Positions 2,138 to 43,313 of a DNA stretch of 64,000 nucleotides are shown here, in pieces. Under the pieces are notes generated by a model, which saw only the letters and a list, made by a program, of their open reading frames with translations, was not told the origin of the DNA and made no database searches. The stretch's first letter is position 1; each line of letters begins with the position of its first letter. Origin of the DNA: Bolinopsis microptera (lineage: Eukaryota; Ctenophora; Tentaculata; Lobata; Bolinopsidae); NCBI RefSeq assembly GCF_026151205.1, contig NC_087078.1, positions 248,001 to 312,000 of the forward strand, in the 5' to 3' direction. The position numbers and the translations under genes are program-made.

Positions 2138-2253
2138 ATGTCGGGAGAGAGGAAGAAGCAGCCCCTGCAGTCCAGAAAGAGTGTGAGAGATCTTCAGAAC
2201 TCTCAGCGTGTCCGGGACCTCAGGAGAACATTCAGTGCAGGAGCACCTCATGA
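2138..2253 (+). CDS. ARHGAP6-like: ARHGAP6-like exon 1 (start codon)
   Basis: Begins MSGERKKQPLQSRKSVRDLQ, basic and rich in Arg/Lys. An in-frame TAA at 2129-2131 blocks upstream extension, and A at -3 gives a fair start context. The exon ends in phase 2 (CAT GA) before donor GTTAGT; the split codon completes as Glu with exon 2. An untranslated leader exon further upstream is not excluded. Confidence 0.65.
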
Positions 2254-5200
2254 GTTAGTGCTTATTTTCCTTTTATATCAATATCATGGTAACAATTCCT
2301 TGTTGTCATGGTAACAATTCCTTATACAGTTATGTAATATGTTATCATGGTAACAATTCCTTATACAGTTATGTAATATGTTATCAAGGTAATATTACCT
2401 TGGCCTTAACAATAAACAAGCTCGAAATATCAAGACTTTTTGGCGAAAACTATCAGCAGTTGTGTTGTTCATGATTTTGTTCCAGAAAAGGTATTATTTG
2501 TCAGTTGCTATGGTAACATTAGAAAAGGTATTATTTGTTCCAGGAGTGACTGTAACCACAGAAAAGTAGGAAATCCAAAAAAAGAAACTTACAGTTACCA
2601 TAGCTACAGGAGGGCTAGTTACGATCATGGGTCTGTTTCAAAATACTGTTTTTAATATGCAATAATAGCTGCATGTGTTGATGCACTGATCGTCATCGAT
2701 GAGTCTATTTAAGCTTTTAAGCGGATCATACAAAAGGAAATTCGAGAATAATGGTACATTCTTCGATAACCTACGTTTAAAGCCATAAATCCATAAGATC
2801 CTATCCTGGTGTGGCAACAATGTTTTGTAAAATTCCACAACTCCGTGAACTGAGAGATTGTTGAGTCATAAAAAGTTTATATTGTCACAACTTATACCAA
2901 CCAAACAGCATGAATAGATTTCCATACGATATATCCTTGCATTATCATTTCAACTTTATTATTCTGATCATCAATAAAGGAAAAATGTAAGATTAAGAAA
3001 ACTTTTTTCAAAAGTATTTGATAAAAATATATAACCTTAAAGAAAATTGTTTCACCATGAAAACAGGATATGCCCGCTTAAAAATGTGTGATACCGAGTG
3101 TTCTCCTGGTTAAGAATTTGCAAACTAAAATAATACTTTGGACAATATGTCATTCTAAGCAAATAGCGAAACAGTAGTCGGGGTGGCCGTAAATATTTAG
3201 ATAATTCAACCAATGAATATTCAAATCAATAAATTTTTATTATTCTTTAAGAGTTTAAGGACTGCTATTAGTTCAATATTTATTTGTTCGCCGTAATTTA
3301 CAGAGTACAAAGATTCGCATTTCGCATTTCGATTTTAGCATGTTTTATCATTTATAATAATATTGCAATATTAAAACATTAATTTTTATTCGAAATGGAA
3401 TGTTTTACCAAGAAATACTCAAAAAAACAGTTTATCCCTATCATTAAAGCTGATGATCGAGAGGACAATCATTACGTAATCATAAACAGAGGGCCATTCA
3501 CATTTTTCGTTGCACAAATTTGTGGGAACTAAGGTATGTTTAAAGCTGTTAGTTACGGAATTACTCATACCCTCCCTCAAACAGAGCGGCGACCAGAGTG
3601 AAGAGCAGCGAGACCAGGTAACCAGGTAACCAGGTAACCAGGTAACCAGGTAACCAGGTAACCAGGTAACCAGGTAACCAGGTAACCAGGTAACCAGGTA
3701 ACCGATACCCTCCCTCAAACAGAGCGGCGACCAGAGTGAAGAGCAGCGAGACCAGGTAACCAGGTAACCAGGTAACCAGGTAACCAGGTAACCAGGTAAC
3801 CAGGTAACTGATACCCTCCCTCAAACAGAGCGGCGACCAGAGTGAAGAGCAGCGAGACCCCAACTCCTGATGATGTGTTAGAGGAACTCGCAAAACACAA
3901 ACAGCTCAGCGCTAGTGATTCTCAGATAGAGGTACCTGACATACGTATATAACCTGGTAACTAGGTAGTAACCTAGTAACTACCTAGTAACCTAGCAACT
4001 CAGCGCTAGTGACTCTCAGATAGAGGTACCTGACATATATATATAACCTGGTAACTAGGTAGTAACCTAGTAAGTACATAGTAACCTAGCAACTCAGCGC
4101 TAGTGACTCTCAGATAGAGGTACCTGACATATATACGTATATAACCTGGTAACTAGGTAGTAACCTAGTAACTAAATAGTAACCTAGCAACTCAGCGCTA
4201 GTGACTCTCAGATAGAGGTACCTGACATATATATATATTTTTTTTTTATATTTTTTTAAAAATTTTTTATATATATAACCTGGTAACTAGGTAGTAACCT
4301 AGTAACCTAGTGACAATACTACAGCTGTCCAATAAAACCGTAAAAGGCTGTGGTGTGTTATATTTAATATTTATGTTGTTAGTTTTTTCAATCTCGCAGT
4401 CTCTGACGACAGGTTTCTCAACAATCCCCTCTATTCTGTAGCCATGGTAGCCATATTCAACTAAACTTCCCCATTAAATTCAATAAACCTGTGAACGTCA
4501 ACATTCCGGATTCTCCTTCGGCTAGTATTTTAACGGCCAAACGGGTCTTTGGCGAAGCAATTATCGTAGTCGCCCATATTACTAAGAATAACATTTTAGG
4601 TAGAATAAAAACTGAAAGTCCCGATGATTTACAAAAATGAGGGGATTTGTAAAAATCGTTTTTTTGATTTTTTTCGCCACGGAATCTCAATATCCCAGCG
4701 CAGTTATAAGTTTTCAAAATTCGGTGGTAAAAATGCCAACATGTTTTATCAGGCCACAACAGGATAATCGCTTTGGCAGCTGATACGATTGGTAATGGGA
4801 GATTGGGAACCAATTGAATTAAATTTAATACTTGTACTTAACTTTTTGTTTGTATTCAGATCACAATAATCACGTAAAAGGTCTCGCACTTTCTAGAAAA
4901 TATATTATTGAGCATTCTATATCTTTCAAGAAGCCCTCTATGAAGGTTTCAACCACCATATAAATATATATCCCTTCCCTTATCTAATTATCATATAAAT
5001 ATGTAATTAGATAAGGATAATCCACTCAAACGCTGTAACTGTTATCATGTGAGAATAATCTGTCCGCTTCCTACCCCGGCCCTGGACCGAGTCCAGCAAG
5101 TTGTAAACATTTAGTGATTTAATCAGAGTGTTATAATTGTACTTTTTAACGCTTAACAGCTTGTTAAACCTCACAACCAAAACAATCCCGGCTTTTAAGA

Positions 5201-8200
5201 AAACCGATCTTCTTTAAACAAAATCATCTGCTGATTCACAAATCCAAATTCTTTCCGTTTTTAGTATGCAACTTACTTTTTAAAAAGTTGACTGAATAAC
5301 AAAAAAGATAAAGAATTAACGTGTTCCTAAAAAGTATATAATACAGATTGCTTACTTGAACTGCTAACCGTTAGGTCACGTTAAATAACACAACTAGAAA
5401 CGTAGTAACCAGACAGTAACCAGACAGTAACCAGACAGTTACTCAGTAACCAGACAGTAACTCAGTAACCAGCTTAGTAACCAGATAGTAACTCAGTAAC
5501 CAGCTTAGTAACCAGATAGTAACTCAGTAACCAGCTTAATAACCAGTCAGTAACTCAGTAACCAGCTTAATAACCAGATAGTAACTTATTAACAATTAAT
5601 AATACAGGTAGACGGCAGACGCGATGAACGTGGCTCGAGTAAGAAAGGTCGAAAAGGAAAAAGTCTGCGGAGCACGTACAAGAAACTCAAAGAGGAGGTT
5701 TGTATTAAGTTATAGTTAACCTGGTAACTAGCTAGTAACATAGTACATAGTAACCTGGTAACTAGCTAGTAACCTAGTAACTAGCTAGTAACCTAACAGC
5801 AAGCTAGTAACCTAGTAATTAGCTAGTAACCTACTACATAGTAACCTAGTAACTAGCTAATAACCTAGTAATCTAGTAACTAGCTAGTAACCTAGTAACC
5901 AGCTAGTTACCTAGTAAACAGTTAGTTACCTAGTAACCAGTAAGTACCTAAGTACCTAATAACTATACAAAAGGGTCAACAAAGTTCCATGTTACCGGCT
6001 AACTTAGACTTGAGACTATTTCGTTACCTAGCCACCACCCAGTAACCTAGCCACCACCCAGTAACCTAGCCACCACCCAGTAACCTAGCCACCACCCAGT
6101 AACCTAGCCACCACCCAGTAACCTAGCCACCACCCAGTAACCTAGCCACCACCCAGTAACCTAGCCACCACCCAGTAACCTAGCCACCACCCAGTAACCT
6201 AGCCACCACCCAGTAACCTAGCCACCACCCAGTAACCTAGCCACCACCCAGTAACCTAGCCACCACCCAGTAACCTAGCCACCACCCAGTAACCTAGCCA
6301 CCACCCAGTAACCTATCCACCACACAGTAACCTAGCCACCACCCAGTAACCTAGCCACCACCCAGTAACCTAGCCACCACCCAGTAACCTAGCCACCGTT
6401 AGTAAGTCATTTTGTAGAATATCTCTAGTTGTAGGTACTAGTAATGCAGTTACCCTGGAGGTAGAACGTAGGAACCTCGCTTCTTAAATAGTAACTTAAG
6501 AGCCATTCACGGAGTCATGGCAACCGGATAGTATCCAGTAAGACTGAAATCAAGGATTTGAAATATGTAGGTAGCCCGAATATTCAACAGGTTCAGCCTT
6601 ATGTTACTAGCTAGTTATATGCAGGTACCTTATGCTGGAGCCTTATGTTACTAGTTGTATGGAGGAGACGTTAAAAGAACGCGCTGTTCTGCATGATGAA
6701 TTAATATTACGCTCTCAGAACACCGCGGACACTTCTAGAGTTCTAGAACAAAGCGCCCTCTCTCTCACGTCTACTACTCACTGTCAAATAATTGCTCTGT
6801 CCTAAGCTGCTCAGTGCTCTTATCCCCTCTTTACCGTCCGTCCTGTGTCTTTTTCCTTGTTTAATATGTAATATCTTTTATTTATTATTTGTTTAATATT
6901 TAAAAAACATATTGCTTTAAATATATTGCTTCTTATATTATCATTATATTTCACTACTCCCGCTACTAGTATCACGCTGCAGTAGTTTAGAGACCAATAT
7001 AATAACGTTTGTTAGATTACATCAAGCATTAAACGTATAATCAAAGCCAATATTTACTATCAATCCATACGACACGAATTTTAATTTGTTCGATATTGCA
7101 ATGGCTACGTATTAATTTTATTGATTTTTCACTTTTAGGACTTCTGCGAATTATTAGATTATAAGGTTTGGAATCAGGTGTGTTAGTACTAGGTACTACT
7201 AGTAGTGTGTGTGTGTTAGTACTAGGTACTACTAGTAGTGTGTGTGTGTTGCAGTTTTTACATTGTTTGAAAAATGCCTAGAAATCCACAGATTTAATTA
7301 TTCGTTACTACTATACAGTTTATTAAAAAAGCAGTTTAAATCAATTAACATGGAATTAAGCGTTTGCATGGCCCTTGCCGCAATGAAAATTAACATCAGC
7401 AGATTCTACTATCTACCAGTAGTAATACCTACTAGTAGTACCTACTAGTAGTACTTACTAGTAGAACCTAGTAGTAGTATCTACTATCTACTAGTAGATA
7501 TCTCACTTATACGGTAACACAATCTACTATGTTCTAGATACTCATACCATAATAATATGTCGCAATCGTAAAAGGAGGATGTCGTGTTTATGACAAATAT
7601 ATACAGCATATATATGATAGTAGTAGTACTAGTACTTACTAGTAGTATCCATAGCAACAAAGCGAATAAATTCAGGGTATTTTAAGCCGCCAAGATACGA
7701 AAGCCTTACTTCGTGGCGACTCAGCAACTGGCTGCGGTAGAAAGTAAAAAAGTATGAACATTAAAAACAGTAAATTTAGAGTTATATAAATATAATTTAT
7801 AGCTAATATTTTAAATACTGTTAAAAGTTGGACGCTTTGATAAACTGATAAAGTACTACTAGTAATATTAATAGTAATAAGCTAATTATTTATATAACAC
7901 AACTTATTATTACTTTATTGCTCAGCAAGTGATGTAGTACAACTGCTCAGCTTATTACATGTGATGATGTTTCCGGGCTGCCTAAATTTATTATCACACT
8001 TCTTCCAACAAGGTCCCGACACAAAATAAAGAATTTAGTTTATCACACTTTTATTAATATAGTCTCACGAAGCACTGCGTAGTTACTATTTTATTATTTT
8101 ATTGCTGTTATTTATTCGTGCTCGGTTCTTAATTCGTTGTATCACGACTATCAAAACTCTTCGGTTCCAGAATTCTTCGATAGTTTTAATTCGTTATATC

Positions 8201-35200: not shown

Positions 35201-38200
35201 CACAGTACACACATAGCAGGTGTTTATAATTCATACTGCGTTACAACTGTTACTAGTAACTACGTTACATGTTAGCATTGCAGTATCGCAAGTTTCTTTG
35301 TCGTGCAACAGGCTTTCTGATTATAATGTATTTTACCATTATCATTGGAAATCTAGACTATTGGGAAGATTGTAAGAATTCCAATTAACAAATTAAAAAT
35401 AACAATTCAAACATATCTATTTCAGATCGAAGGAAACAGGATGGACATCTCGAATTTAGCAGTAGTGATCGGCCCGAACCTGCTTCACAGGCGGAAGAGA
35501 GGGGGTCCGGACAGTATCTCCCGACTAGCTCACGAGGCGTGGGAGGCCCCCATAGTTATAGAGGTCGTGAAGGAGCTACTGGAACATCATCAGCTACTCT
35601 TCACAGTCAGTCAACTCGTTCACTTACTTTACTTACTTACTTACTTACAGCTACTCTTCACAGTCAGTCAACTCGTTCACTTACTTTACTTACTTACTTA
35701 CTTACAGCTACTCTTTACAGTCAGTCAACTCGTTTACTTACTTTACTTACTTACTTACAGCTACTCTTCACAGTCAGTCAACTCGTTCACTTACTTTACT
35801 TACTTACTTACTTACAGCTACTCTTTACAGTCAGTCAACTCGTTCACTTACTTTACTTACTTACTTACAGCTACTCTTTACAGTCAGTCAACTCGTTCAC
35901 TTACTTTACTTACTTACTTACAGCTACTCTTCACAGTCAGTCAACTCGTTCACTTACTTTACTTACTTACTTACTTACAGCTACTCTTTACAGTCAGTCA
36001 ACTCGTTTACTTACTTTACTTACTTACTTACAGCTACTCTTTACAGTCAGTCAACTCGTTCACTTACTTTACTTACTAACTTACAGCTACTCTTTACAGT
36101 CAGTCAACTCGTTCACTTACTTTACTTACTTACTTACAGCTACTCTTTACAGTCAGTCAACTCGTTCACTTACTTTACTTACTAACTTACAGCTACTCTT
36201 CACAGTCAGTCAACTCGTTCACTTACTTTACTTACTAACTTACAGCTACTCTTCACAGTCAGTCAACTCGTTCACTTACTTTACTTACTTACTTACAGCT
36301 ACTCTTTACAGTCAGTCAACTCGTTCACTTACTTTACTTACTTACTTACAGCTACTCTTTACAGTCAGTCAACTCGTTCACTTACTTTACTTACTTACTT
36401 ACAGCTACTCTTTACAGTCAGTCAACTCGTTCACTTACTTTACTTACTTACTTACAGCTACTCTTTACAGTCAGTCAACTCGTTCACTTACTTTACTTAC
36501 TTACTTACAGCTACTCTTTACAGTCAGTCAACTCGTTCACTTACTTTACTTACTTACTTACAGCTACTCTTTACAGTCAGTCAACTCGTTCACTTACTTT
36601 ACTTACTTACTTACAGCTACTCTTTACAGTCAGTCAACTCGTTCACTTACTTTACTTACTTACTTACAGCTACTCTTCACAGTCAGTCAACTCGTTCACT
36701 TACTTTACTTACTAACTTACAGCTACTCTTTACAGTCAGTCAACTCGTTCACTTACTTTACTTACTTACTTACAGCTACTCTTTACAGTCAGTCAACTCG
36801 TTCACTTACTTTACTTACTTACTTACAGCTACTCTTTACAGTCAGTCAACTCGTTCACTTACTTTACTTACTTACTTACTTACAGCTACTCTTCACAGTC
36901 AGTCAACTCGTTCACTTACTTTACTTACTTACTTACTTACAGCTACTCTTTACAGTCAGTCAACTCGTTTACTTACTTTACTTACTTACTTACAGCTACT
37001 CTTCACAGTCAGTCAACTCGTTCACTTACTTTACTTACTTACTTACTTACAGCTACTCTTTACAGTCAGTCAACTCGTTCACTTACTTTACTTACTTACT
37101 TACAGCTACTCTTTACAGTCAGTCAACTCGTTCACTTACTTTACTTACTTACTTACAGCTACTCTTCACAGTCAGTCAACTCGTTCACTTACTTTACTTA
37201 CTTACTTACAGCTACTCTTTACAGTCAGTCAACTCGTTCACTTACTTTACTTACTTACTTACAGCTACTCTTTACAGTCAGTCAACTCGTTCACTTACTT
37301 TACTTACTAACTTACAGCTACTCTTTACAGTCAGTCAACTCGTTCACTTACTTTACTTACTTACTTACAGCTACTCTTTACAGTCAGTCAACTCGTTCAC
37401 TTACTTTACTTACTAACTTACAGCTACTCTTTACAGTCAGTCAACTCGTTCACTTACTTTACTTACTTACTTACAGCTACTCTTTACAGTCAGTCAACTC
37501 GTTCACTTACTTTACTTACTTACTTACAGCTACTCTTTACAGTCAGTCAACTCGTTCACTTACTTTACTTACTTACTTACAGCTACTCTTTACAGTCAGT
37601 CAACTCGTTCACTTACTTTACTTACTTACTTACAGCTACTCTTTACAGTCAGTCAACTCGTTCACTTACTTTACTTACTTACTTACAGCTACTCTTCACA
37701 GTCAGTCAACTCGTTCACTTACTTTACTTACTTACTTACAGCTACTCTTTACAGTCAGTCAACTCGTTCACTTACTTTACTTACTAACTTACAGCTACTC
37801 TTTACAGTCAGTCAACTCGTTCACTTACTTTACTTACTTACTTACAGCTACTCTTTACAGTCAGTCAACTCGTTCACTTACTTTACTTACTTACTTACAG
37901 CTACTCTTTACAGTCAGTCAACTCGTTCACTTACTTTACTTACTTACTTACAGCTACTCTTTACAGTCAGTCAACTCGTTCACTTACTTTACTTACTTAC
38001 TTACAGCTACTCTTTACAGTCAGTCAACTCGTTCACTTACTTTACTTACTTACTTACAGCTACTCTTTACAGTCAGTCAACTCGTTCACTTACTTTACTT
38101 ACTAACTTACAGCTACTCATTACAGTTCATTGTTCAATTTTCCTCCAATTTAAGGGTCACCCTTAATTGCAGATTTGAGTCGTACCAAAGTGTTTACCTA

Positions 38201-41200
38201 CCTTATATGTTACCTATGTTAATATCACCAAAGCAATTTCTTCCTTAATAAAATTGCTTAATAAAGGCCAGCTTACCCTTTAAAAACACGGTTAAGGGTG
38301 AACTTGTAACTGAAGAAGTTTTATAATCGTATCGCAGGTTACTACTAACAAGACACTACTAACTACTAACCATTACGCAGGTGGAATGTTATTTGAGAAA
38401 AGAAGTGCTGAGAAGGATGCAGGAAACTAAGCAGAGCCACTTTAACGATGTTTTGAACGGGTACACGGGCACTGAAGAGGACGGTAGAGGCCGCCTAACT
38501 CCTGATAACCAGGTAATCATAGTAACCAGGTAACCAGGTAACCAGGTAGCCAGGTAACCAGGTAACCAGGTAACTAGGTAACCAGGTAACCAGGTAACCA
38601 GGTAATCATAGTAACCAGGTAATCATAGTAACCAGGTAACCAGGTATCCAGGTAGCCAGGTAACCAGGTAACCAGGTAACTAGGTAACCAGGTAACCAGG
38701 TAACCAGGTAATCATAGTAACCAGGTAATCATAGTAACCAGGTAACCAGGTAACCAGGTAACCAGGTAAACAGCCTAACTCCTGATATCTCACTTGAAAG
38801 CAAGGTTTGAAGAGGCCGCCTAACTCCTGGTTACCTGGTAACCTGGTAACCTGGTAACCAGATAACCAGGTAACTAGGTAACCAGGTAACCAGGTAACCA
38901 GGTAACCAGGTAACCAGGTAACCAGGTAACCAGGTAACCAGCCTAACTCCTGATATCTCACTTGAAAGCAAGGTTTGTAATAATAATAAAAAATAAACGC
39001 TTGAAGGCATTCAAGACCGTTAAAAATCCGCAATTTTTTTCATCTTTTTTAACCTTTTTGCCAATGAGATTTATTTTGCCCAATTTGACCAGCTGGTGTA
39101 GGTCTCTCAATAATTATTTCACCGATTTCCTTTCGTGTGTAATAACGTCCAAAGCTGTGTTGCGAAAACTTACAAATGTGCAAGGTATCCAGGTAACCAG
39201 GTAACCAGGTAACCAGGCCTACGCGGTATCGTACCGTGTTTTAACTTGGGAGAATGACGTTACCATGGTAACACGTGACCAAGAGACAATTTTAACAAGT
39301 CTCACACCTCTCACAAACAAACTACACAGGACTACACTGTGGCGAGTAAGCGGAGAAGACTGCAGGACACAAGACTACAGGACACAAGACTACAGGACAC
39401 AAGACTACAGGACACAAGACTTATACAGGACAGGCGAAATGAAGTGCAAAAACTCACACGAACTGACGAACAAACATACGCACGAGCTTACCAACAAACA
39501 CAAACACGAGCTTATGACCAAACACAATGGATAGGAACTAGTGACAATGATTACACCGACCTTTACCCACAAATAATGCTCACTCCGACTGAATCACAAA
39601 CTGAAATGTTTTCTTGCAATGTCCCGAAAGTTATTTTATCAAAACATGAACTTGAAGAAAATGTGTTGGAAGATGACACCTTTTACTACAAACCACAAAC
39701 CGCCTACTTGAAAACATCTCATAGCACAAAAAGTTTAAATTCTAATAAATTGAACAATAACGTTGGGTATGAGTGTGAGAAGTGTGCAGGAAGCGGGGGT
39801 GAGAAGTGTGATAGTAACCTAAAATCAAGGATCAACACAATGTGGGGTGAGATGAGGAGACGAAGCAAGGAAAAGTGGGTGAGTTGGAAAACTGCCAATA
39901 AACTTAACTTGTCAAAGAGACTGACAAGATCTGTGTTTCTAAAACACTGGCGTGAGAATTATCATAGTTACCATGGTTACCGGCGTAAGAATCATCACTC
40001 TTCTTTACGTGATCTTTCTAACGTTGAAGTAAAAGCACTTTGTTACTGAGCACCTCCTTGACGATTTGTTATTTTTGAGACATTTCATAATTATATTTCT
40101 ATGATCGTTTCTCTTGTTATAAAAGTTCAACGACGTGTCAAAAATTGTGTGAAATATATATTTCATAGTCATACAATTTTCTATATATAGAAAAATAAAG
40201 CGGGCTATTGCAAAAACGCTTAGTTCAGACCTTTTCTACAAGTTTACTACAAAAAATCTTTGAAAATGCTGACACTGCCATCACATAGCAGCTAAAACTG
40301 AATAACTATTGTAGAGAGTTTAAGAATGTATATTTCAGGGAGAGTCTAGGTCGAACTTGTCCTCCAGTCAGAACCTTTCCTCCAGTCAGAATCTGTCCTC
40401 CAACCAGCGCCACCTGATGAACGGGAGCAGCGGGTTTGTGAGTGGGGGATGCAGCAGTAATGGTAGCACTGAGAGTCTGCAATACAAACCCTGTTCTAAC
40501 AAGTAAGCTACTCATTTAATTTCTTTCTTTTATCAAACATTTGAAACATTTCAAAGTGTGTTGTTGTCTAAATTCTATATTGACCATCTTATCGGACGTT
40601 ATTTGACTGGATATTGTGTAAACGGACAAACACGCAAGGGGCCATCTACTTAGGACGTCCGCCAATATTTGAGCGCACATGAACGCTAGGGCCTCTATAA
40701 ACAGTGTCTAATTGATGTCCGTTCGAATAAAGTTCTAGAAGGTATAGAATCTATACCTTCAGCAGAGACGAGTGCAGAATGGGATACTGTGAGAGACAGC
40801 ACTCTTCACCAGAACTCAACAACCTCAACCTTGAAAAAGATAGTCGCAAACGTCTTAGCAGATCACTTGATGTAAGTGTAACACATGGTAACCGTTACGC
40901 CGCGCACTGGTCCATTGTCATGGTAACCGTTACGCTGCGCACTGGTCCATTGTCATGGTAACCGTTACGCTGCGCACTGGTCCATTGTCATGGTAACCGT
41001 TACGCCGCGCACTGGCCCATTGTCTTAGTTATAATCAAAGCATTTCTTAGCAAAGGGGTTAAATTTAATAAGTACTGCTATGCGATCCACACAGCGTCTG
41101 ATGTACCAGTATGGAGACAAAATGGTACTGGTAGCAATGTTTGTCACTAAACGGAATTTAGATGTGCCGGGTTGGCATTGGCAAGTGAGTTACCATGGTA

Positions 41201-43313
41201 ACAAGTGAGGATAGGTTCTCCTTATTTACAGCTTATGTTTGCAGAAGGACGACATCTGTGACAACTCAGTTAGTTACCATGACAACTCAGACATGCCCTT
41301 CGAGGTGGAAGATGCGACGAGTTCCAGCGAGGGACTATTTAGCAAAGACTCTGCATACGACCTGACTCCACCTTGTAAGTAAAAATTGTTCTTAGTTAGT
41401 TACCATGGTAACGTTACCTTGGCCAGTTGGTAGATCACCGACCGGCTATAAGCCGGCTACTAACCGGCTAATAGCCGTTTTCGCTGAATTACTTATAGCC
41501 GGCTCCTGACTATCGTTCAGTTTAGCTATAAAAATTGTAGCCGGCTATAAGCCGGCTTATAGCCGGTTAGTAGCCGCTTACATTTGTTGTTGAGCGACGG
41601 CTATTAGCCGGTTATAAGCCTGCTATTAGCCGTTTTGGTATTAAAAGTGGTTATAAGCCGGCTATAAGCCGGTTATAAGATATTAACTCAACTACATCGT
41701 ACTGAACGATAGTCAGGAACCGGCTATAAGAAATTCAGTGAAAACGGCTATTAGCCGGTTATAAGCCGGCTATTAGCCGGCTACTAACCGGCTTATAGCC
41801 GGCTTATAGCCGGCTACAATTTTTATAGCCGGCTATAAGCCGGCTTATAGCCGGTTAGTAGCCGCTTACATTTGTTGTTGAGCGACGGCTATTAGCCGGT
41901 TATAAGCCTGCTATTAGCCGTTTTGGTATTAAAAGTGGTTATAAGCCGGCTATAAGCCGGTTATAAGATATTAACTCAACTACATCGTACTGAACGATAG
42001 TCAGGAGCCGGCTATAAGAAATTCAGTGAAAACGGCTATTAGCCGGTTATAAGCCGGTTATTAGCCGTTTAGGTATCGAAAGTGGTTATAAGCCGGTTAT
42101 AAGATATTAACTCAGTTCAGTACGATGAAGTTAAGTTAATATCTTATAGCCGGCTTATAGCCGGCTTATAACCACTTTCGATACCTAAACGGCTAATAGC
42201 CGGCTTATAACCGGCTAATAGCCGTTTTCGCTGAATTACTTATAGCCGGCTCCTGACTATCGTTCAGTACGATGTAGTTGAGTTAATATCTTATAACCGG
42301 CTTATAGCCGGCTTATAACCACTTTCGATACCTAAACGGCTAATAGCCGGCTTATAACCGGCTGTAATAATTGTAGCCGGCTATAAGCCGGTTTATAGCC
42401 GGCTTTTAACCGGCTTATAGCCGGTCGGTGATCTACCAATTTCCCCGTTACCTTATATGGTAATGTAACCATGGTTAACATGACCTGACTCCACCTTGTA
42501 AGTAAGTTACCATGGTCAGCAATGTAACCATGATAGCGTGGTAGTTTGATTTATGTCAAACGGCCGTGATTTTGCCCAACTTTTCATTATATTCATACAT
42601 TATGTGGACATATTATATAAATATATTCGTCCCTTCTGGGGCGCTAGTTTTAACGTAAGAAAGAGCTTACTTATCAACCCTCACCCTAATACTTTAGCGT
42701 CTCCAGTTTTCGAGAGAAACGCAAACGACAGAACACTGTTTTGCGCGAAACCAGGCAAGGCTTCTGCAAAATCTGGACTTGGAGCCCTCTCTCCCAACCA
42801 AACCTTCACCTCATTCCGTCTGGTTAGTAAATAGTATTACCTTATATGGCATTGTTACCATGGTGACACTCCCTTATATGGTATTGTTACCATGGTGACA
42901 CTCCCTTATATGGTATTGTTACCGTGGTGACACTCCCTTATATGGTATTGTTACCATGGTGATACTCCCTTATATGGTAGTGTGGAGCTCTCTCTCTGAT
43001 CAAAGCCCTATTTCATTCTGTTTAGTTCAGGTTAATAAAATAAATGGTTTTAAAGACTCTAACTGTAATGCTTGTTGTTCATTACCATGGTAACCACTGT
43101 AACCATAGCAACTAACTGATCTCCATCCATTAGTTGTTTGTACTAACTGTAATTCTATCCCAGGATAAGATGACTGTAGGAGGAAGTCAACAAGCTCCCG
43201 CTAGTCCCCGACTCGGTGAGTCCAGGAGAGCCGCCATGAAGAAAGGGAACCCCCGCAACTTGAGACCTCCGCGCAAAGTACTGGCAGAATCTCAGCGACA
43301 GAGTCAAGTGTAG
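2138..43313 (+). CDS. ARHGAP6-like: ARHGAP6-like Rho GTPase-activating protein, 27-exon gene model
   Basis: The product would accelerate GTP hydrolysis by Rho-family GTPases and so act on the actin cytoskeleton at cytoplasm or membrane. The model joins 27 exons (listed separately) in consistent phase: 3489 nt, about 1162 aa. Residues about 301-500 hold a pre-GAP region with an IPKD...EMPL segment like that of ARHGAP6. The RhoGAP domain spans about 516-710, with the arginine finger in GIFRV (about R539), the conserved lysine in LIKEF (about K576) and the asparagine in SNLAVVIGPNLL (about N660). The N-terminal 300 residues are basic, Ser-rich and carry an acidic run; the C-terminal 450 are Ser/Asn-rich and look disordered. 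Human ARHGAP6 has about 970 aa with similar order. Exons 4, 5, 8, 11 and 12 are weakest. Introns are filled with minisatellites and contain transposons. The assignment to ARHGAP6/36 rather than ARHGAP18/28 rests on the finger and post-GAP motifs. Confidence 0.8.
2254..3566 (+). other. intron 1, unique part
   Basis: AT-rich intron. Near its start are three short tandem copies of ATGGTAACAATTCC-type sequence (2286-2400), again carrying the GGTAAC half-palindrome. No coding segment is seen in the remainder. Confidence 0.5.
3567..3828 (+). repeat. duplicated splice acceptor plus exon-2 fragment, separated by CCAGGTAA arrays
   Basis: The block CCCTCCCTCAAACAG (acceptor) followed by the first about 30 nt of exon 2 occurs at about 3571, 3708 and 3813. 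Copies one and two run into (CCAGGTAA) minisatellites; only the third continues into the full exon. Each extra copy ends GACCAG|GTAACC, a donor-like junction, so each looks like a small acceptor-exon-donor cassette. Open frames on the minus strand here are by-products of the repeat. Confidence 0.85.
3829..3931 (+). CDS. ARHGAP6-like: ARHGAP6-like exon 2
   Basis: Phase 2 in, phase 0 out. Reads AATRVKSSETPTPDDVLEEL then AKHKQLSASDSQIE. Acceptor CCCTCCCTCAAACAG, donor GAG|GTACCT. The other two frames contain stops, so the phase is fixed by exon 1 and exon 3. No known domain. Confidence 0.75.
3898..4302 (+). repeat. tandem copies of the exon-2 3' end with its donor
   Basis: The last about 25 nt of exon 2 (AGCGCTAGTGA, CTCAGATAGAG) plus the donor GTACCTGACATA recur at about 3989, 4093 and 4191, each followed by an AT run and TAACCTGGTAACTAGGTAGT sequence. 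Four copies in all, including the real exon end. The last copy runs into a long T/A tract able to form a hairpin (4227-4276). Confidence 0.85.
4303..5400 (+). other. intron 2, unique AT-rich part
   Basis: Non-coding on the + strand. The minus strand has a 118-codon open frame at 4457-4813 with no recognisable motif; I do not call it a gene. A short inverted segment around 4965-5010 repeats ATATAAATATGTAATTAGATAAGG-like halves. Confidence 0.4.
5401..5590 (+). repeat. CCAGACAGTAA / CAGCTTAGTAACCAG minisatellite
   Basis: Imperfect tandem units of 10 to 30 bp built from GTAACCAG and GTAACTCA. The array stops just before the exon-3 acceptor. Confidence 0.8.
5608..5697 (+). CDS. ARHGAP6-like: ARHGAP6-like exon 3
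   Basis: Thirty codons, phase 0 to 0: VDGRRDERGSSKKGRKGKSL then RSTYKKLKEE. Very basic, like a nuclear-localisation or acidic-lipid-binding stretch (inference). Acceptor ATAATACAG, donor GAG|GTTTGT. Confidence 0.75.
5713..5960 (+). repeat. TAACCTAGTAACTAGCTAG minisatellite
   Basis: About a dozen imperfect units starting 15 bp after the exon-3 donor. Confidence 0.8.
6021..6398 (+). repeat. 19-bp CCTAGCCACCACCCAGTAA minisatellite
   Basis: About 20 nearly identical 19-bp units; one unit near 6310 has two substitutions. Confidence 0.9.
6399..7138 (+). other. intron 3, unique part
   Basis: No coding exon or repeat recognised apart from scattered TTACTAG words. Ends in TTTTCACTTTTAG, the acceptor of exon 4. 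Confidence 0.4.
7139..7177 (+). CDS. ARHGAP6-like: ARHGAP6-like exon 4 (small, tentative)
   Basis: Thirteen codons, DFCELLDYKVWNQ, phase 0 to 0, with acceptor TTTTTCACTTTTAG and donor CAG|GTGTGT. An earlier donor (AAG|GTTTGG at 7165) would give nine codons in the same phase. The donor abuts a two-copy repeat (7178-7252), which is the habit of other real donors in this gene. Confidence 0.45.
7178..7500 (+). repeat. TACTAGTAGTA-rich repeats in intron 4
   Basis: A roughly 35-bp unit of GTGTGTTAGTACTAGGTACT type is duplicated at 7178-7252, and loose TACTAGTAG runs occupy 7415-7500. The TACTAG words are palindromic. Confidence 0.7.
7676..7736 (+). CDS. ARHGAP6-like: ARHGAP6-like exon 5 (tentative)
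   Basis: Phase 0 in, phase 1 out: GILSRQDTKALLRGDSATGC. It is included because it alone supplies the phase-1 junction that exon 6 needs. Acceptor AATAAATTCAG, donor GCG|GTAGAA (weak). Confidence 0.5.
8227..8325 (+). repeat. two-copy direct repeat in intron 5
   Basis: About 45 bp starting at TATTAAAGAGCTGCAGCCCC is present twice. It also resembles AGAGCTGCAACCCCC at 28270, so it may be an end of a dispersed element. Confidence 0.6.
8740..8798 (+). CDS. ARHGAP6-like: ARHGAP6-like exon 6
   Basis: Phase 1 in, phase 0 out: AEHQPRSNSCSPSFHVPFVP. Tandem CAG acceptors (CCAG|CAG|AG) could drop one residue. Donor CCT|GTAAGT is strong. Ser/Pro-rich. Confidence 0.7.
8799..9318 (+). repeat. CTGCTAGTATCCTAGTAAC minisatellite beginning at the exon-6 donor
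   Basis: About 28 units of 17 to 19 bp. The first unit is the donor itself (GTAAGTATCCTAGTAA), so the array grew from the 5' splice site outward. Confidence 0.85.
9337..9466 (+). CDS. ARHGAP6-like: ARHGAP6-like exon 7, acidic run
   Basis: Phase 0 in, phase 1 out. Starts VFTPVMERARRVSRTMSRPF and continues AEEWGSDEDEEEEDDADP. The basic-then-acidic pattern with RRVSRTMSRP looks like a basophilic kinase site (inference). Acceptor CCCCCCTGTCAG, donor CTCG|GTTACT. Confidence 0.8.
9528..9562 (+). CDS. ARHGAP6-like: ARHGAP6-like exon 8 (microexon, tentative)
   Basis: Phase 1 in, phase 0 out; joined with exon 7 it reads AELLKLLELKLT, amphipathic. Good acceptor (GTTTTTACAACCAG), moderate donor (ACA|GTATAAGT). 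It is needed because exon 7 cannot join exon 9 directly without a stop. Confidence 0.5.
9719..9792 (+). CDS. ARHGAP6-like: ARHGAP6-like exon 9
   Basis: Phase 0 in, phase 2 out: SQQYPSNLKKNSLYSTDSEE then AVSK. Acceptor TTCTGTGTTTCAG, donor AAAAG|GTAAGC, both strong. Confidence 0.8.
9938..10312 (+). repeat. poly-C minisatellite (C7-C19 runs)
   Basis: About eleven units of TATTAATACTCAGTACC followed by 6 to 19 C and CTGTATG. The minus strand carries matching G runs with potential for stacked G-quadruplexes. Confidence 0.85.
10333..10492 (+). CDS. ARHGAP6-like: ARHGAP6-like exon 10
   Basis: Phase 2 in, phase 0 out: RPPLSRNLSEEKRSDSRGRR, KSAAGFLMSYASLKLHQIKH, AGSTESLTDWEYCD. Strong acceptor (GACCTGTACTCCAG) and donor (GAC|GTGAGT). 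The STESLTDWEY end resembles short acidic/aromatic motifs in other ARHGAP N-termini (weak inference). Confidence 0.8.
10499..11015 (+). repeat. about 50-bp ATTACTGAGAATTATATTAG minisatellite
   Basis: About ten AT-rich units of 48 to 51 bp, starting within 10 bp of the exon-10 donor. Confidence 0.85.
11262..11467 (+). repeat. 11-bp TTAACAACACC array
   Basis: About 18 units with single substitutions in two of them. The flanks (11016-11261 and 11468-11999) show no gene. Confidence 0.9.
12003..17150 (+). repeat. 5.1-kb array of a 34-bp unit (about 150 copies)
   Basis: Units contain CACTCAACTCTTTCTAG then TTAATGTTAGTTAGT, with two main variants (GTATCACTC or GTTTCACTC) and a 33-bp form lacking one T. 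CACTCAACTCTTTCTAG resembles a 3' splice acceptor and GTTAGT is a donor used elsewhere in this gene (exons 1, 18, 26). It lies in the long intron after exon 10. Blocks of variants recur in the same order (for example around 12003 and 12520), which indicates segmental duplication inside the array. Confidence 0.95.
17151..18045 (+). other. unique intron sequence with a 9-bp (CTGCCTACC) array
   Basis: About nine copies of CTGCCTACC occupy 17885-17970. Two ACCATGGCAATATTAC copies lie at 17465-17510. No exon could be fixed here although one with phase 0 in and 1 out would be welcome for the first unit of the next array. Confidence 0.5.
18046..20463 (+). repeat. 93-bp microexon-plus-intron array, 26 copies
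   Basis: Every unit reads acceptor (CTAATTTCTTTAG), a 16-nt segment ATTGAGGAGCACTACC, donor GTGAGT, then a 71-bp spacer. Units differ by few substitutions (AAATG or AACTG or GAATG). The 780-codon minus-strand frame exists only because 93 is a multiple of three. Inference: a short exon and its intron were amplified as one unit. Confidence 0.95.
20371..20386 (+). CDS. ARHGAP6-like: ARHGAP6-like exon 11 (16-nt microexon, last of 26 copies)
   Basis: ATTGAGGAGCACTACC gives IEEHY plus one base, phase 0 in and 1 out. Any of 25 identical upstream copies with the same acceptor would serve equally; using more than one in tandem would break the frame, since 16 is not a multiple of three, until three are joined. 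Confidence 0.35.
20464..20480 (+). CDS. ARHGAP6-like: ARHGAP6-like exon 12 (17-nt microexon, tentative)
   Basis: Follows the array's final acceptor CTAATTTCTTTAG. Reads H-MKFDP, phase 1 in, phase 0 out, donor CCT|GTAGAT (weak). Chosen because it restores the phase required by exon 13. Alternative exons in 20.5-28.6 kb are possible. Confidence 0.3.
20481..22070 (+). other. unique intron sequence
   Basis: No supported exon. Short duplications include TTAGTAATAGTACGTACTG (21139 and 21170) and TAATGCTTAAATTGGTTGAG (21879 and 21912). A G-rich/C-rich inverted pair (GGAGGGGGAGGGGGTTC, GAACCCCCCCTCC) at 21429-21461 can form a hairpin. Confidence 0.4.
22074..22230 (+). repeat. three-copy 53-54-bp repeat
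   Basis: Units hold ACTGGGTTTACTACAATTTG and GCTTGTTACTGCCTTCTCC. The overlapping short open frames here are by-products. Confidence 0.8.
22805..23250 (+). repeat. CACGTG E-box array (16-bp unit, about 20 copies)
   Basis: Three longer units (ATTACAGTGATACCTACTGT) precede about 20 copies of CACGTGCTGTATAACA. Each has a perfect CACGTG palindrome, the site of bHLH factors such as MYC/MAX, USF or CLOCK. The minus-strand frames of 105 to 166 codons are artefacts of the array. Confidence 0.9.
23251..24387 (+). other. unique intron sequence with small duplications
   Basis: Three GTACAGTTAGCA units occur at 23998-24028, and an approximately 57-bp unit holding CACTAGTCACTACACTAGTG is duplicated at 24080-24200. 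No coding segment supported. Confidence 0.4.
24396..27841. mobile_element. 3.4-kb foldback DNA transposon with 8-bp target duplication
   Basis: The ends are GGCACTATCCGTCGC and its exact complement GCGACGGATAGTGCC, flanked by AAGCTATG at 24388-24395 and 27842-27849. Arms of about 1.2 kb (24396-25620 and 26577-27841) are near-perfect inverted copies; the outer 450 bp of each is built of CGGACTCCGAGCGG / CCGGCGGAGTCCG palindromes. The spacer of about 950 bp has no transposase-like frame. An 8-bp duplication suggests the hAT or P/Merlin-type groups; family not settled. Non-autonomous. High arm identity indicates a recent origin or gene conversion. Confidence 0.9.
27850..28262 (+). repeat. 61-bp triplicated sequence and flank
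   Basis: Three copies (27880-28048) of a unit with TTTGTCACTGACGATATATT and GGCAGTGTTACCATGATAAC, the latter an X-box-like half palindrome. The remainder is unique. Confidence 0.8.
28281..28306. repeat. poly-C tract
   Basis: A run of about 18 C followed by CTCCCAC, preceded by AGAGCTGCAA. Confidence 0.9.
28604..28763 (+). CDS. ARHGAP6-like: ARHGAP6-like exon 13
   Basis: Phase 0 in, phase 1 out: DIEQYENSRTGERYDPETTV, LSELHPKELDYLRTLSLERY, NEKNTGVVASIPK. This aligns by eye with the LSELERARLQEVAFYQL...ITIPKD segment of ARHGAP6. Acceptor GTCACTCCTGCAG, donor AAAG|GTAACC. A second CCTAAAG|GTGAGC at 28807 is a copy of the junction lying after an in-frame stop. Confidence 0.88.
28764..28812 (+). 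repeat. AGTAACCAT micro-array between two copies of the exon-13 donor
   Basis: Four ATAGTAACC units separate CCATACCTAAAG|GTAACC from a second CCATACCTAAAG|GTGAGC. The exon end was duplicated together with the donor. Confidence 0.85.
28872..30405 (+). repeat. 34-bp GCTTCAGGTATTGGTGATCA array, about 45 copies
   Basis: Each unit ends GTCTGTAACATTAG and restarts CTTCAG|GTATTGG, so it contains an acceptor-like TAACATTAG, six nucleotides, and a donor-like CAG|GTATTG. Very homogeneous, with variants CATGTC, ATAAGC and ATTAAC. Confidence 0.95.
30877..31197 (+). repeat. 27-bp GCACGTGCACTGTATTACAG array, about 12 copies
   Basis: Units carry GCACGTGC or TACGTGC palindromes and two ATTACAG acceptor-like words. 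Two overlapping + frames of about 120 codons arise from the 27-bp period. 30406-30876 is unique AT-rich sequence. Confidence 0.9.
31198..31739 (+). other. unique intron sequence before exon 14
   Basis: Contains a short hairpin (TATGGTTACAGT / ACTGTAACCATA at 31274-31305). No coding segment. Confidence 0.5.
31740..31808 (+). CDS. ARHGAP6-like: ARHGAP6-like exon 14
   Basis: Phase 1 in and out: PGRKLKRTSSYRGKKSVEKE. With exon 13 it makes IPKDPGRKLKR, matching the IPKDGQKRKK region of ARHGAP6. Acceptor ACATTTCAG, donor ACA|GTAAGT. The donor is repeated 25 bp on (CCACA|GTAAGTAA), another junction copy. Confidence 0.85.
31829..31935 (+). repeat. 10-bp AATGTGTATA array
   Basis: About ten units filling most of the 157-bp intron 14. 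Confidence 0.9.
31966..32157 (+). CDS. ARHGAP6-like: ARHGAP6-like exon 15
   Basis: Phase 1 in and out: LLAGGIFEMPLHVVLQIDAI followed by a basic stretch ending RSLTPRLGRRFGSLK. The FEMPLHVVL segment corresponds to FGMPLSQVI of ARHGAP6. Acceptor TTTCCCCTCAG, donor AAAG|GTAAAG. Confidence 0.88.
32158..32692 (+). other. intron 15, unique
   Basis: Short AACGTAACGTAAC repeats at 32210-32242. Nothing else recognised. Confidence 0.5.
32693..32869 (+). CDS. ARHGAP6-like: ARHGAP6-like exon 16
   Basis: Phase 1 in and out: CRSFSTPNTPMDSRKKRPVS, then PTASLTCNYGNHGNTNSNN and TLDDLVSKLSNFSRAI. The CNYGNHGN stretch is encoded by a TAACCATGGTAAC palindrome of the dispersed X-box type, so the motif lies in coding sequence. 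Acceptor GTGTTTTCAG, donor ACG|GTACGT. Confidence 0.83.
33041..33133 (+). CDS. ARHGAP6-like: ARHGAP6-like exon 17, start of RhoGAP domain
   Basis: Phase 1 in and out: SSKSLFDDSELNKHEIPIIL then KNCCQFVLQNG. IPIILKNCCQFVLQNG matches the first helix of RhoGAP domains (ARHGAP6: VDSCCQHLEKHG). Acceptor ATAATTCCAG, donor ACG|GTACAG. Confidence 0.9.
33134..33748 (+). other. intron 17 with a second copy of a dispersed repeat
   Basis: 33445-33541 resembles 1797-1892. Four GTAACCATGGTAACG-type palindromes lie at about 33188, 33207, 33325 and 33548. Confidence 0.6.
33749..33955 (+). CDS. ARHGAP6-like: ARHGAP6-like exon 18, RhoGAP catalytic core
   Basis: Phase 1 in and out. LDQQGIFRVCGAKKQVRTLR holds the catalytic arginine finger (GIFRV). 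Further on VAGLIKEFIKELPEALLT carries the conserved lysine and ELP turn. Acceptor CATTCTCCGCAG, donor AGAC|GTTAGT. Confidence 0.95.
33930..34065 (+). repeat. four copies of the exon-18 end with its donor
   Basis: The 29-bp unit CTTTCATACACTGCAGAC|GTTAGTTTTAC is repeated directly after the exon. CACTGCAG inside it is also acceptor-like. Confidence 0.9.
34434..34722. mobile_element. GC-rich MITE, probably hAT-like
   Basis: Imperfect termini CAGCATTGCACGCCGCC and GGCGGCGTGCAGCACTG resemble those of the 45030 element. Internal CCGCCG runs alternate with AT-rich sequence. A target duplication could not be fixed because the insertion lies among CACTGCAG repeats. Confidence 0.6.
34774..34925 (+). 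CDS. ARHGAP6-like: ARHGAP6-like exon 19, RhoGAP middle
   Basis: Phase 1 in, phase 0 out: LEALDARLEAYRELIRLLPD, SNRDTLQFLLKFFRVVADNS, EDRVDNDGLP. LLPDSNRDTL...LLKF is typical of RhoGAP domains. Acceptor CTCTTCCTCAG, donor CCA|GTGAGT. Confidence 0.93.
34869..35147 (+). repeat. duplicated exon-19 3' end with donor, flanking a GGTTACCT array
   Basis: About 87 bp from TTCAGAGTTGTGGCCGACAA through the donor to TTTAGTAGTAGTGGTTA occur at 34870 and again at 35062. About 13 GGTTACCT units lie between. The second copy keeps the reading frame and the donor but lacks an acceptor. Confidence 0.95.
35148..35425 (+). other. intron 19, unique remainder
   Basis: No feature recognised; ends in the CATATCTATTTCAG acceptor. 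Confidence 0.5.
35426..35605 (+). CDS. ARHGAP6-like: ARHGAP6-like exon 20, end of RhoGAP domain
   Basis: Sixty codons, phase 0 to 0: IEGNRMDISNLAVVIGPNLL, HRRKRGGPDSISRLAHEAWE, APIVIEVVKELLEHHQLLFT. The NLAVVIGPNLL motif holds the conserved Asn and Pro of the fold; the close ARHGAP6 parallel is [20 protein letters not shown]. Donor ACA|GTCAGT is the first unit of the following array. Confidence 0.93.
35591..38112 (+). repeat. 2.5-kb array of acceptor + 12-nt exon end + donor (about 48 copies)
   Basis: Units of 50 to 57 bp read CTTACTTACAG|CTACTCTTTACA|GTCAGT then TCAACTCGTTCACTTAC. CTACTCTTTACA is the last 12 nt of exon 20 (LLFT). Each unit thus has a plausible acceptor, an in-frame 12-nt block and the same donor. 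The 625- and 212-codon frames across it are not proteins. Confidence 0.95.
38381..38512 (+). CDS. ARHGAP6-like: ARHGAP6-like exon 21
   Basis: Forty-four codons, phase 0 to 0: VECYLRKEVLRRMQETKQSH, FNDVLNGYTGTEEDGRGRLT, PDNQ. Follows the GAP domain as in ARHGAP6 (LFMVPPDLQNEVL). Acceptor CCATTACGCAG preceded by TACTAAC branch-like words, donor CAG|GTAATC. Confidence 0.88.
38506..38945 (+). repeat. CCAGGTAA array with scattered exon-21 end copies
   Basis: Begins at the exon-21 donor (AACCAG|GTAATC). Interspersed are CAGCCTAACTCCTGATA (38770, 38940), GAGGCCGCCTAACTCCTG (38812) and a duplicated ATCTCACTTGAAAGCAAGGT block. Confidence 0.9.
39330..39878 (+). CDS. ARHGAP6-like: ARHGAP6-like exon 22
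   Basis: Phase 0 in and out. Starts DYTVASKRRRLQ then four LQDTR repeats from a 15-bp coding minisatellite, a long Asn/Thr/Gln-rich stretch and ends MRRRSKEKW. Acceptor AACTACACAG, donor TGG|GTGAGT (strong). The frame stays open past the donor to 40049, giving an alternative 3' end. Confidence 0.7.
39879..40049 (+). CDS. ARHGAP6-like: alternative read-through end of exon 22
   Basis: If the 39878 donor is not used, 56 more codons follow (VSWKTANKLNLSKRLTRSVF ... NVEVKALCY) to TGA at 40047-40049, and AATAAA lies at 40194-40199. This would give a shorter isoform lacking exons 23-27. A TAGTTACCATGGTTACC palindrome encodes SYHGYR inside it. Confidence 0.5.
   Translation: MSWKTANKLNLSKRLTRSVFLKHWRENYHSYHGYRRKNHHSSLRDLSNVEVKALCY
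40194..40199 (+). terminator. AATAAA polyadenylation signal of the short isoform
   Basis: Lies 145 bp after the read-through stop, within the intron before exon 23. Downstream T-rich sequence is moderate. Confidence 0.4.
40339..40502 (+). CDS. ARHGAP6-like: ARHGAP6-like exon 23
   Basis: Phase 0 in, phase 2 out: GESRSNLSSSQNLSSSQNLS, then SNQRHLMNGSSGFVSGGCSS. Three SSQNL-type repeats. Acceptor GTATATTTCAG, donor CAA|GTAAGC. Confidence 0.8.
40763..40871 (+). CDS. ARHGAP6-like: ARHGAP6-like exon 24
   Basis: Phase 2 in, phase 0 out: RDECRMGYCERQHSSPELNN, LNLEKDSRKRLSRSLD. RKRLSRSLD looks like a 14-3-3 or basophilic kinase motif (inference). Acceptor CTATACCTTCAG, donor GAT|GTAAGT. Confidence 0.8.
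40880..41025 (+). repeat. about 35-bp ATGGTAACCGTTACGC repeat, four copies
   Basis: Starts nine bases after the exon-24 donor. Units hold GGTAACCGTTACGC and GCGCACTGGTCCATTGTC. Confidence 0.9.
41245..41374 (+). CDS. ARHGAP6-like: ARHGAP6-like exon 25
   Basis: Phase 0 in, phase 1 out: KDDICDNSVSYHDNSDMPFE, VEDATSSSEGLFSKDSAYDL, TPP. Acidic and Ser-rich. Acceptor TTATGTTTGCAG, donor CTT|GTAAGT. Confidence 0.8.
41427..42439. mobile_element. foldback/cruciform element of AGCCGGCTATAAGCCGG palindromes
   Basis: Termini TTGGTAGATCACCGACCGG and the complement CCGGTCGGTGATCTACCAA. The interior is a dense nest of GCCGGCTTATAGCCGG / GCCGGCTATTAGCCGG words in both orientations, with AGTTAATATCTTATA and ACGATAGTCAGGA segments also inverted. 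No open frame. It sits in intron 25. No target duplication could be set. Confidence 0.85.
42482..42509 (+). repeat. orphan copy of the exon-25 end and donor
   Basis: GACCTGACTCCACCTTGTAAG repeats the last bases of exon 25 plus its donor, 1.1 kb downstream and on the other side of the foldback element, in the same TTACCATGG context. Confidence 0.85.
42698..42822 (+). CDS. ARHGAP6-like: ARHGAP6-like exon 26
   Basis: Phase 1 in, phase 0 out: SSPVFERNANDRTLFCAKPG, KASAKSGLGALSPNQTFTSF, RL. Joined to exon 25 it reads LTPPSSPVF. Acceptor TAATACTTTAG, donor CTG|GTTAGT. Confidence 0.78.
42832..42976 (+). repeat. 33-bp repeat with GTTACCATGGTGAC, about four copies
   Basis: Units hold CTTATATGGTATTGTTACC and ATGGTGACACTCC; starts 10 bp after the exon-26 donor. 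Confidence 0.9.
43164..43313 (+). CDS. ARHGAP6-like: ARHGAP6-like exon 27 (stop codon)
   Basis: Phase 0 in: DKMTVGGSQQAPASPRLGES, RRAAMKKGNPRNLRPPRKVL, AESQRQSQV, stop TAG at 43311-43313. Very basic tail. Acceptor TTCTATCCCAG. An internal CTCG|GTGAGT at 43215 could be an alternative donor. Confidence 0.78.
   Translation, partial: DKMTVGGSQQAPASPRLGESRRAAMKKGNPRNLRPPRKVLAESQRQSQV

Follow-up and report, generated by a model that had tools for sequence, protein, structure and literature searches.

Minisatellite arrays straddle splice junctions in a ctenophore RhoGAP gene and in other genes of the same genome

The window examined here, a 64,000-nucleotide stretch of Bolinopsis microptera DNA, carries a gene whose exons were read on the plus strand, from 2138 to 43313, by splice consensus and reading frame. 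The resulting model has 24 exons and 46 internal junctions (23 donors and 23 acceptors), and the frame is preserved at every join with the exception of that of 8740-8798 into 9337-9466. Four joined exons encode a RhoGAP domain that matches positions 1-147 of the 148 in the Pfam RhoGAP profile at 1.2e-45 and the sequences of 34 solved chains, with a top value of 2.9e-20. Exons outside this domain are candidates modelled from frame and splice consensus, and the 139-aa peptide upstream of the RhoGAP exons gave no match in Pfam. The putative name ARHGAP6-like originates with a preliminary description of this DNA; the exon numbers given there (2, 6, 11/12, 13, 18-21 and 25) could not be mapped one-to-one onto the 24 exons. 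Exons of the model include:

2138..2253, + strand: candidate first coding exon, with ATG at 2138 and donor GTTAGT; copies of its junction are absent
3829..3931, + strand: exon, read in the frame AATRVKSSETPTPDDVLEELAKHKQLSASDSQIE
33749..33955, + strand: exon of the RhoGAP domain
35426..35605, + strand: exon of the RhoGAP domain, with donor GTCAGT
43164..43313, + strand: final coding exon, with the stop codon at 43311-43313

The exons at 10333-10492 and 28604-28763 join directly in frame. Because the gap from 10492 to 28604 needs no further exon, the array at 18045-20465 (26 copies of a 93-bp unit containing an acceptor-like and a donor-like site), previously proposed as an exon, is superfluous in the model. 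On the minus strand, an 818-codon open frame passes through this array. Inside an 18-kb intron, 24409-25612 and 26578-27781 form a 1204-nt inverted repeat with arms that are 99% complementary and 965 nt apart; such long inverted ends probably mark a mobile element of recent origin. The palindrome GTTACCATGGTAAC occurs, with at most one mismatch, at 29 places across the window (mean 0.00 in 100 shuffles), and one of these (32783-32796) lies within the proposed coding exon 32693-32869.

Each junction was represented by a 20-mer of 12 exon and 8 intron bases, mirrored at acceptors, and a copy was scored where at least 16 of the 20 bases matched within the same intron. Copies were found at 9 of the 46 internal junctions, which partly confirms the earlier claim of repeat-abutting junctions, but the acceptor side proved rare, with one case in 23 (before 3829) compared with eight of 23 donors (after 3931, 28763, 31808, 33955, 34925, 35605, 38512 and 41374). 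Six of the nine copies match at all 20 bases and one at 18, and those at 28763 and 31808 lie at the threshold of 16. At seven of the eight donors the closest copy is 22-190 nt away; that at 41374 is more remote, at 1123 nt. At six further donors (5697, 7177, 8798, 10492, 40871 and 42822) an array starts within 20 nt and the junction itself is not copied. The arrays and copies at these junctions include:

3564..3860, + strand: acceptor-side composite array, in which the acceptor and exon start recur at 3585 and 3723, ahead of the 3829 acceptor used in the model
3905..4237, + strand: 3.5 copies of a 94-bp unit made of the exon's final 27 nt, donor GTACCT and intron
7178..7250, + strand: 2.2 copies of a 33-bp unit, beginning precisely at the donor after 7177, with no exon overlap
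8802..9255, + strand: 24 copies of a 19-bp unit, beginning 3 nt past the donor of the exon ending at 8798
28752..28808, + strand: exon end CCATACCTAAAG and GT, recurring 43 nt downstream at 16/20 with an array of the 9-mer GTAACCATA in between
31797..31838, + strand: exon end and donor, copied 22 nt downstream at 16/20 and followed by a 9-mer array, in a 157-nt intron
33936..34059, + strand: 4.3 copies of a 29-bp unit made of the final 20 nt of the RhoGAP exon and GTTAGTTTT
34774..34925, + strand: RhoGAP-domain exon whose final ~54 nt, donor and ~32 nt of intron recur 190 nt downstream
35591..38126, + strand: 47 copies of a 53-bp unit made of the exon's final 15 nt, donor and intron
38506..38941, + strand: 53 copies of the 8-mer TAACCAGG, starting 7 nt inside the exon ending at 38512
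41359..41382, + strand: exon end and donor CTCCACCTT/GTAAGTAA (exon/intron), with a single copy at 42482-42505, 1123 nt downstream

In the composite array the copies lie 244 and 106 nt upstream of the 3829 acceptor (best match 20/20), the unit is 106 bp, and the copies are spaced by arrays of the 8-mer ACCAGGTA. The 29-bp unit at 33936..34059 has one more copy 777 nt downstream, and the copy of the end of exon 34925 comes after an array of TGGTTACC (34952-35060). Between both copies of the exon end and donor at 41374 lies a satellite of about 1 kb resembling TAGCCGGC (41427-42439), with 51-nt inverted ends that are 86% alike. The start of exon 9719 (9719-9745, AGTCAGCAGTATCCTAGCAACCTGAAG) is similar to the unit of the array in an intron further upstream, 8802-9255 (AGTATCCTAGTAACCTGCT).

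To place junctions independently of repeats, by conserved protein sequence, we sought loci across the genome that encode RhoGAP, myosin head, dynein DHC_N2, kinesin or ABC membrane domains; the myosin search of solved structures used an E cut-off of 1e-90, as 1e-250 gave none. Loci were chosen by domain matches before repeats were inspected; they are a subset of the matching loci, and some large genes are partial. A purpose-written spliced profile aligner placed introns in 72 loci outside the window, and 321 of the 336 modelled introns were retained; the 15 dropped, all from the second sample, had an exon shorter than 18 nt or an intron shorter than 60 nt. Junction copies were found at eight donors and five acceptors, or 13 of 642 junctions, and at 11 of the 166 junctions of introns of at least 500 nt; all 13 match at 19 or 20 of 20 bases. 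Junction-spanning minisatellites are thus not confined to the window gene. The donor units in the sample consist of a conserved coding exon end and its donor, repeated as many as about 230 times; the highest number belongs to a 19-bp unit (locus L015), and a kinesin exon (L065) terminates in 25 copies of a 35-bp unit of coding sequence and GTAAGTA. The window gene is extreme in having copies at 8/23 donors compared with 8/321 in the sample (P 1e-6), consistent with its repeat load, arrays detected by TRF making up 50.1% of its intron bases and 19% of those in the sample.

Chance similarity is a negligible source of these copies, as donor 20-mers compared with the introns of other genes in the first sample gave a mean of 0.05 matches per 191 over 20 draws; the same figure rules out an introner-like family. 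Exon-internal 20-mers in the first sample had a copy in the following intron in none of 176 cases. Repeat density is a more demanding null. Because arrays occupy half of the window gene's intron bases, random intronic 20-mers would be copied in 7.3 and 7.4 of 23 cases, against eight donors and one acceptor seen, so that window donors are as repeat-covered as the average intronic site and acceptors are depleted. The corresponding expectations in the sample are 20.7 and 20.8, against eight donors and five acceptors. Since this null counts entire array lengths, we also used a sliding null in which every array (197 in the sample, 61 in the window) was moved within its own intron and could extend into the exon by at most one unit.

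Under the sliding null, comparison of repeat starts with shuffled positions in the 321 introns, placed by homology without RNA, revealed an approximately twofold excess at donors: with arrays that overlap the exon counted in, 33 start under 20 nt beyond the donor where 15.4 are expected (P at most 1e-4), and another 142 lie away from both junctions. In the window, 12 left edges fall in this range against 3.1 expected, a number reached in 0 of 20,000 simulations. The donor-edge excess is stable across three TRF settings, after removal of near-identical paralogues and in both halves of the sample (17 vs 8.4 and 16 vs 7.1 expected). The preliminary description had held that random expansion would not respect junctions so often; array starts at donors bear this out, but straddling, taken as an exon overlap of at least 8 nt, exceeds expectation only weakly. 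That description had named a lack of enrichment of repeat starts at exon boundaries across the genome as its refutation; in this smaller sample the starts are enriched. Straddled donors number 8 against 3.8 expected in the sample (P 0.03), 3 against 1.0 in the window (P 0.07) and 11 against 4.8 when the two are pooled (P 0.006). At sample acceptors, 22 starts within 20 nt compare with 15.4 expected (P 0.04) and 5 straddling arrays with 3.8 (P 0.33), two of the five (a 22-bp unit in L027 and L028) depending on a doubtful 27-nt exon; window acceptors have 2 near starts against 3.0 and 1 straddling array against 1.0. Both ends of the sample introns together give 13 straddling arrays, two of them doubtful, against 7.6 expected (P 0.025), falling to 11 against 7.5 (P 0.10) for pooled straddling at the strictest TRF setting. 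A simpler Poisson null gives 8 vs 3.45 at sample donors (P 0.025) and 5 vs 3.45 at acceptors (P 0.27), and the sample halves disagree at straddled acceptors (4 vs 1.5 and 1 vs 2.3 expected).

The excess is similar at the two ends of the intron when starts within 60 nt are counted (45 at donors and 46 at acceptors, 33.3 expected at each). Near arrays cluster at 0-20 nt from donors and chiefly at 8-60 nt from acceptors, the latter spacing being as expected if the branch point and pyrimidine tract exclude arrays from the final bases. Introns shorter than 300 nt show no excess of straddling (1 vs 1.7 expected at either end), and those of at least 300 nt do (7 vs 2.1 at donors, 4 vs 2.1 at acceptors), a split that is partly circular and not a clean test because long introns are partly long through their arrays. 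Donor starts in short introns, which hold only 36 arrays, number 13 against 7.9 expected (P 0.03). A modest preference of array starts for donors, at the beginning of introns, remains.

Minisatellites ordinarily arise by duplication between short direct repeats, and one pair of genes preserves such a step at a splice junction. L027 and L028 are near-identical paralogues encoding myosin-like domains. L028 contains three copies of a ~72-bp segment that spans the acceptor and includes both intron and exon sequence; the segment is single in L027 and bounded there on both sides by CAACTATTTC, a 10-bp direct repeat present at both unexpanded breakpoints. The comparison shows the L028 array to have been born by tandem duplication between short direct repeats. 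The likeness to ordinary minisatellite birth lies in that 10-bp repeat, and the difference is that the segment here includes a splice site, so that exon sequence enters the intron. Six paralogue intron pairs were compared, and a junction array was born in this one; the others differ by entire inserted segments or by simple divergence. Straddling units vary evenly in the share of exon that they contain (11 arrays, KS P 0.41), the pattern that random breakpoints would give. Among young arrays, 35 of 52 have a partial last copy of at least 2 nt (TRF), and the exact run is longer than the unit, marking exact flanking repeats, in only 7 of 31 two-copy rows.

Near-identical modelled proteins identify several recently duplicated genes, in pairs or larger groups on the same or different contigs, that would be useful for dating intron growth (L027/L028, L032/L033, L043/L044, L046/L047, L067/L068/L069 and L071/L072). 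The kinesin paralogues L043 (intron 892-1954) and L044 (intron 978-1100) differ by a ~940-bp insert and encode an apparently identical protein over their common part. This insert has inverted ends and inner TAAGACAACAT arrays, and is likely a mobile element bringing minisatellite-like arrays into the intron.

The preliminary description had also suggested that such copying lengthens introns and leaves spare splice sites, and both suggestions hold. Arrays make up the majority of the intron (58-95%) at six of 11 straddled donors and 3-52% at the other five; the array accounts for 4403 of 4763, 1720 of 1818, 854 of 1027, 846 of 1466 and 387 of 599 intron bases, and for 2521 of 2775 in the window array 35591..38126. 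Across eight arrays, the GT is intact in 385 of 386 donor copies. Of the 16 donors with copies, 15 have the first copy at a distance not divisible by three, so that its use would shift the frame. The first copy of donor 35605, 57 nt downstream, is in frame and open, and frame therefore does not force use of the first donor there. Counted by cells, donor hexamers are better preserved than exon parts in two arrays, the difference for the window 53-mer resting on one exon-part column; counted by columns over six arrays, 4 of 36 donor-hexamer and 23 of 141 exon-part columns are polymorphic, which limits the claim to spare donors staying intact.

For the observed straddling arrays, their coding-derived units, the one birth event and the statistics, the explanation we favour, with a probability of roughly 0.6, is ordinary tandem duplication in a minisatellite-rich genome, tolerated since the outermost splice site would remain functional. 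A segment between short direct repeats would be duplicated, by slippage or end-joining, and then amplified. Most duplications would land within introns and some would straddle a splice site; the latter would persist, as an intact mRNA is still made from the first donor or last acceptor, and the surplus copies would turn into intron, so that introns lengthen and gather decoy splice sites. The twofold excess of donor starts may then be mainly a trace of arrays seeded in introns that were short at the time, and no splice-linked machinery would be involved. The confinement of excess straddling to introns of at least 300 nt fits such seeding followed by lengthening. Also in favour are the even spread of exon shares, the like excess within 60 nt of either intron end, and the frame shift that most first copies would cause. 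Against the favoured explanation, donor starts are in twofold excess in the 321 introns and fourfold in the window, acceptor starts within 20 nt are less in excess (22 vs 15.4), the GTAA motif of donors does not clearly account for this, one of six paralogue pairs records a birth, the first copy at 35605 keeps the frame, and exact flanking repeats occur in only 7 of 31 two-copy rows.

A more far-reaching reading, which we judge unlikely, is a bias of tandem duplication in this lineage towards junctions, chiefly 5' splice sites, by which introns would grow from their donors as arrays of exon end and donor, and the spliceosome would have to pass over up to hundreds of intact decoys for the first. 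Duplication that starts preferentially at 5' splice sites, for example at breaks or R-loops tied to transcription or splicing, with introns growing outward, we judge unlikely. It would account for the donor-edge excess in sample (33 vs 15.4) and window (12 vs 3.1), its robustness to TRF settings, paralogue removal and sample division, and the pooled donor straddling (P 0.006), but the effect is only about twofold, straddling units have no fixed breakpoint, acceptors too are in excess within 60 nt, and the 33 sample arrays at donors are outnumbered by 142 remote from either junction. The earlier interpretation, a mechanism that copies junction-spanning DNA, is thus partly supported: the enrichment of donor starts, the longer introns and the intact spare donors stand, but with a twofold effect, weak straddling and a birth by ordinary duplication, a special mechanism is not needed.

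It is more doubtful that GTAA-like motifs, on whichever strand, are where arrays arise or survive, and that GTAAGT donors merely coincide with them. In the 142 interior sample arrays, GTAAC/GTTAC, AGTAA, GTAAG and GGTAA rank 3, 12, 15 and 16 in enrichment among 512 strand-collapsed five-mers, and GTAAG and its complement are both enriched. The leading five-mer is nevertheless CCCCC, and GTAAG shows no enrichment in the window (rank 334; GTAAC ranks 22). Moreover, GTAA donors show no significant surplus of arrays over other donors (12/96 vs 21/225, P 0.42), and several straddled donors read GTCAGT, GTGACA or GTTAGT.

Intron gain or a splice-site shift, in which arrays came first and sites moved into them, or introns arose from tandem-duplicated exonic AGGT segments, is very improbable. 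In its favour, excerpts of PMC4974935 and PMC3629103 describe intron gain by tandem duplication in other organisms, and for 8 of the 13 sample cases no other modelled family member has an intron at that position, judged by equal phase and a distance of at most one profile column. Against gain by tandem duplication, none of 17 straddling array rows reaches both intron ends. Against a shift, the exon ends within units align to the family profile, and the alignment continues across the junction. L027, moreover, retains the same intron, free of the array.

Repeat units that supply splice donors have a precedent in human IFI6 (6-16, G1P3), where a minisatellite has multiple splice donors (Turri et al. 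1995, as cited in PMC4526556). As summarized there, IFI6 is one human gene with three mRNA species, whereas here several genes of one genome are affected, the donor units reach 94 bp and about 230 copies, and downstream copies are mostly frame-breaking. Units holding an exon end and its 5' splice site, as in IFI6, occur at 8/23 window donors, one of which has just a single copy far away, and at 8/321 sample donors. Two fission yeast introns are made of 24-nt tandem repeats, and as excerpted in PMC3629103 extra splice sites likewise come from tandem duplication that spans or lies close to a splice boundary; here, in contrast, existing introns lengthen from one end, and arrays spanning both ends were not found (0/17 rows). 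The C. elegans minisatellite CeRep25B is similarly over-represented near splicing decisions, lying near alternatively spliced regions, but an excerpt of PMC4039745 presents it as one dispersed intronic family with regulatory motifs, in contrast to the local copies of each junction seen here. Our literature search, in which subscription journals were thinly covered, found no genome-scale description of minisatellites that straddle junctions.

Junction-straddling arrays would provide a route by which introns lengthen without harm to the protein, one that has left copies at about 2% of the sampled junctions (13/642). They also present, within conserved genes, naturally occurring series of 5' splice sites that are nearly identical and number about 230 in one intron; RNA from these could reveal how a donor is chosen.
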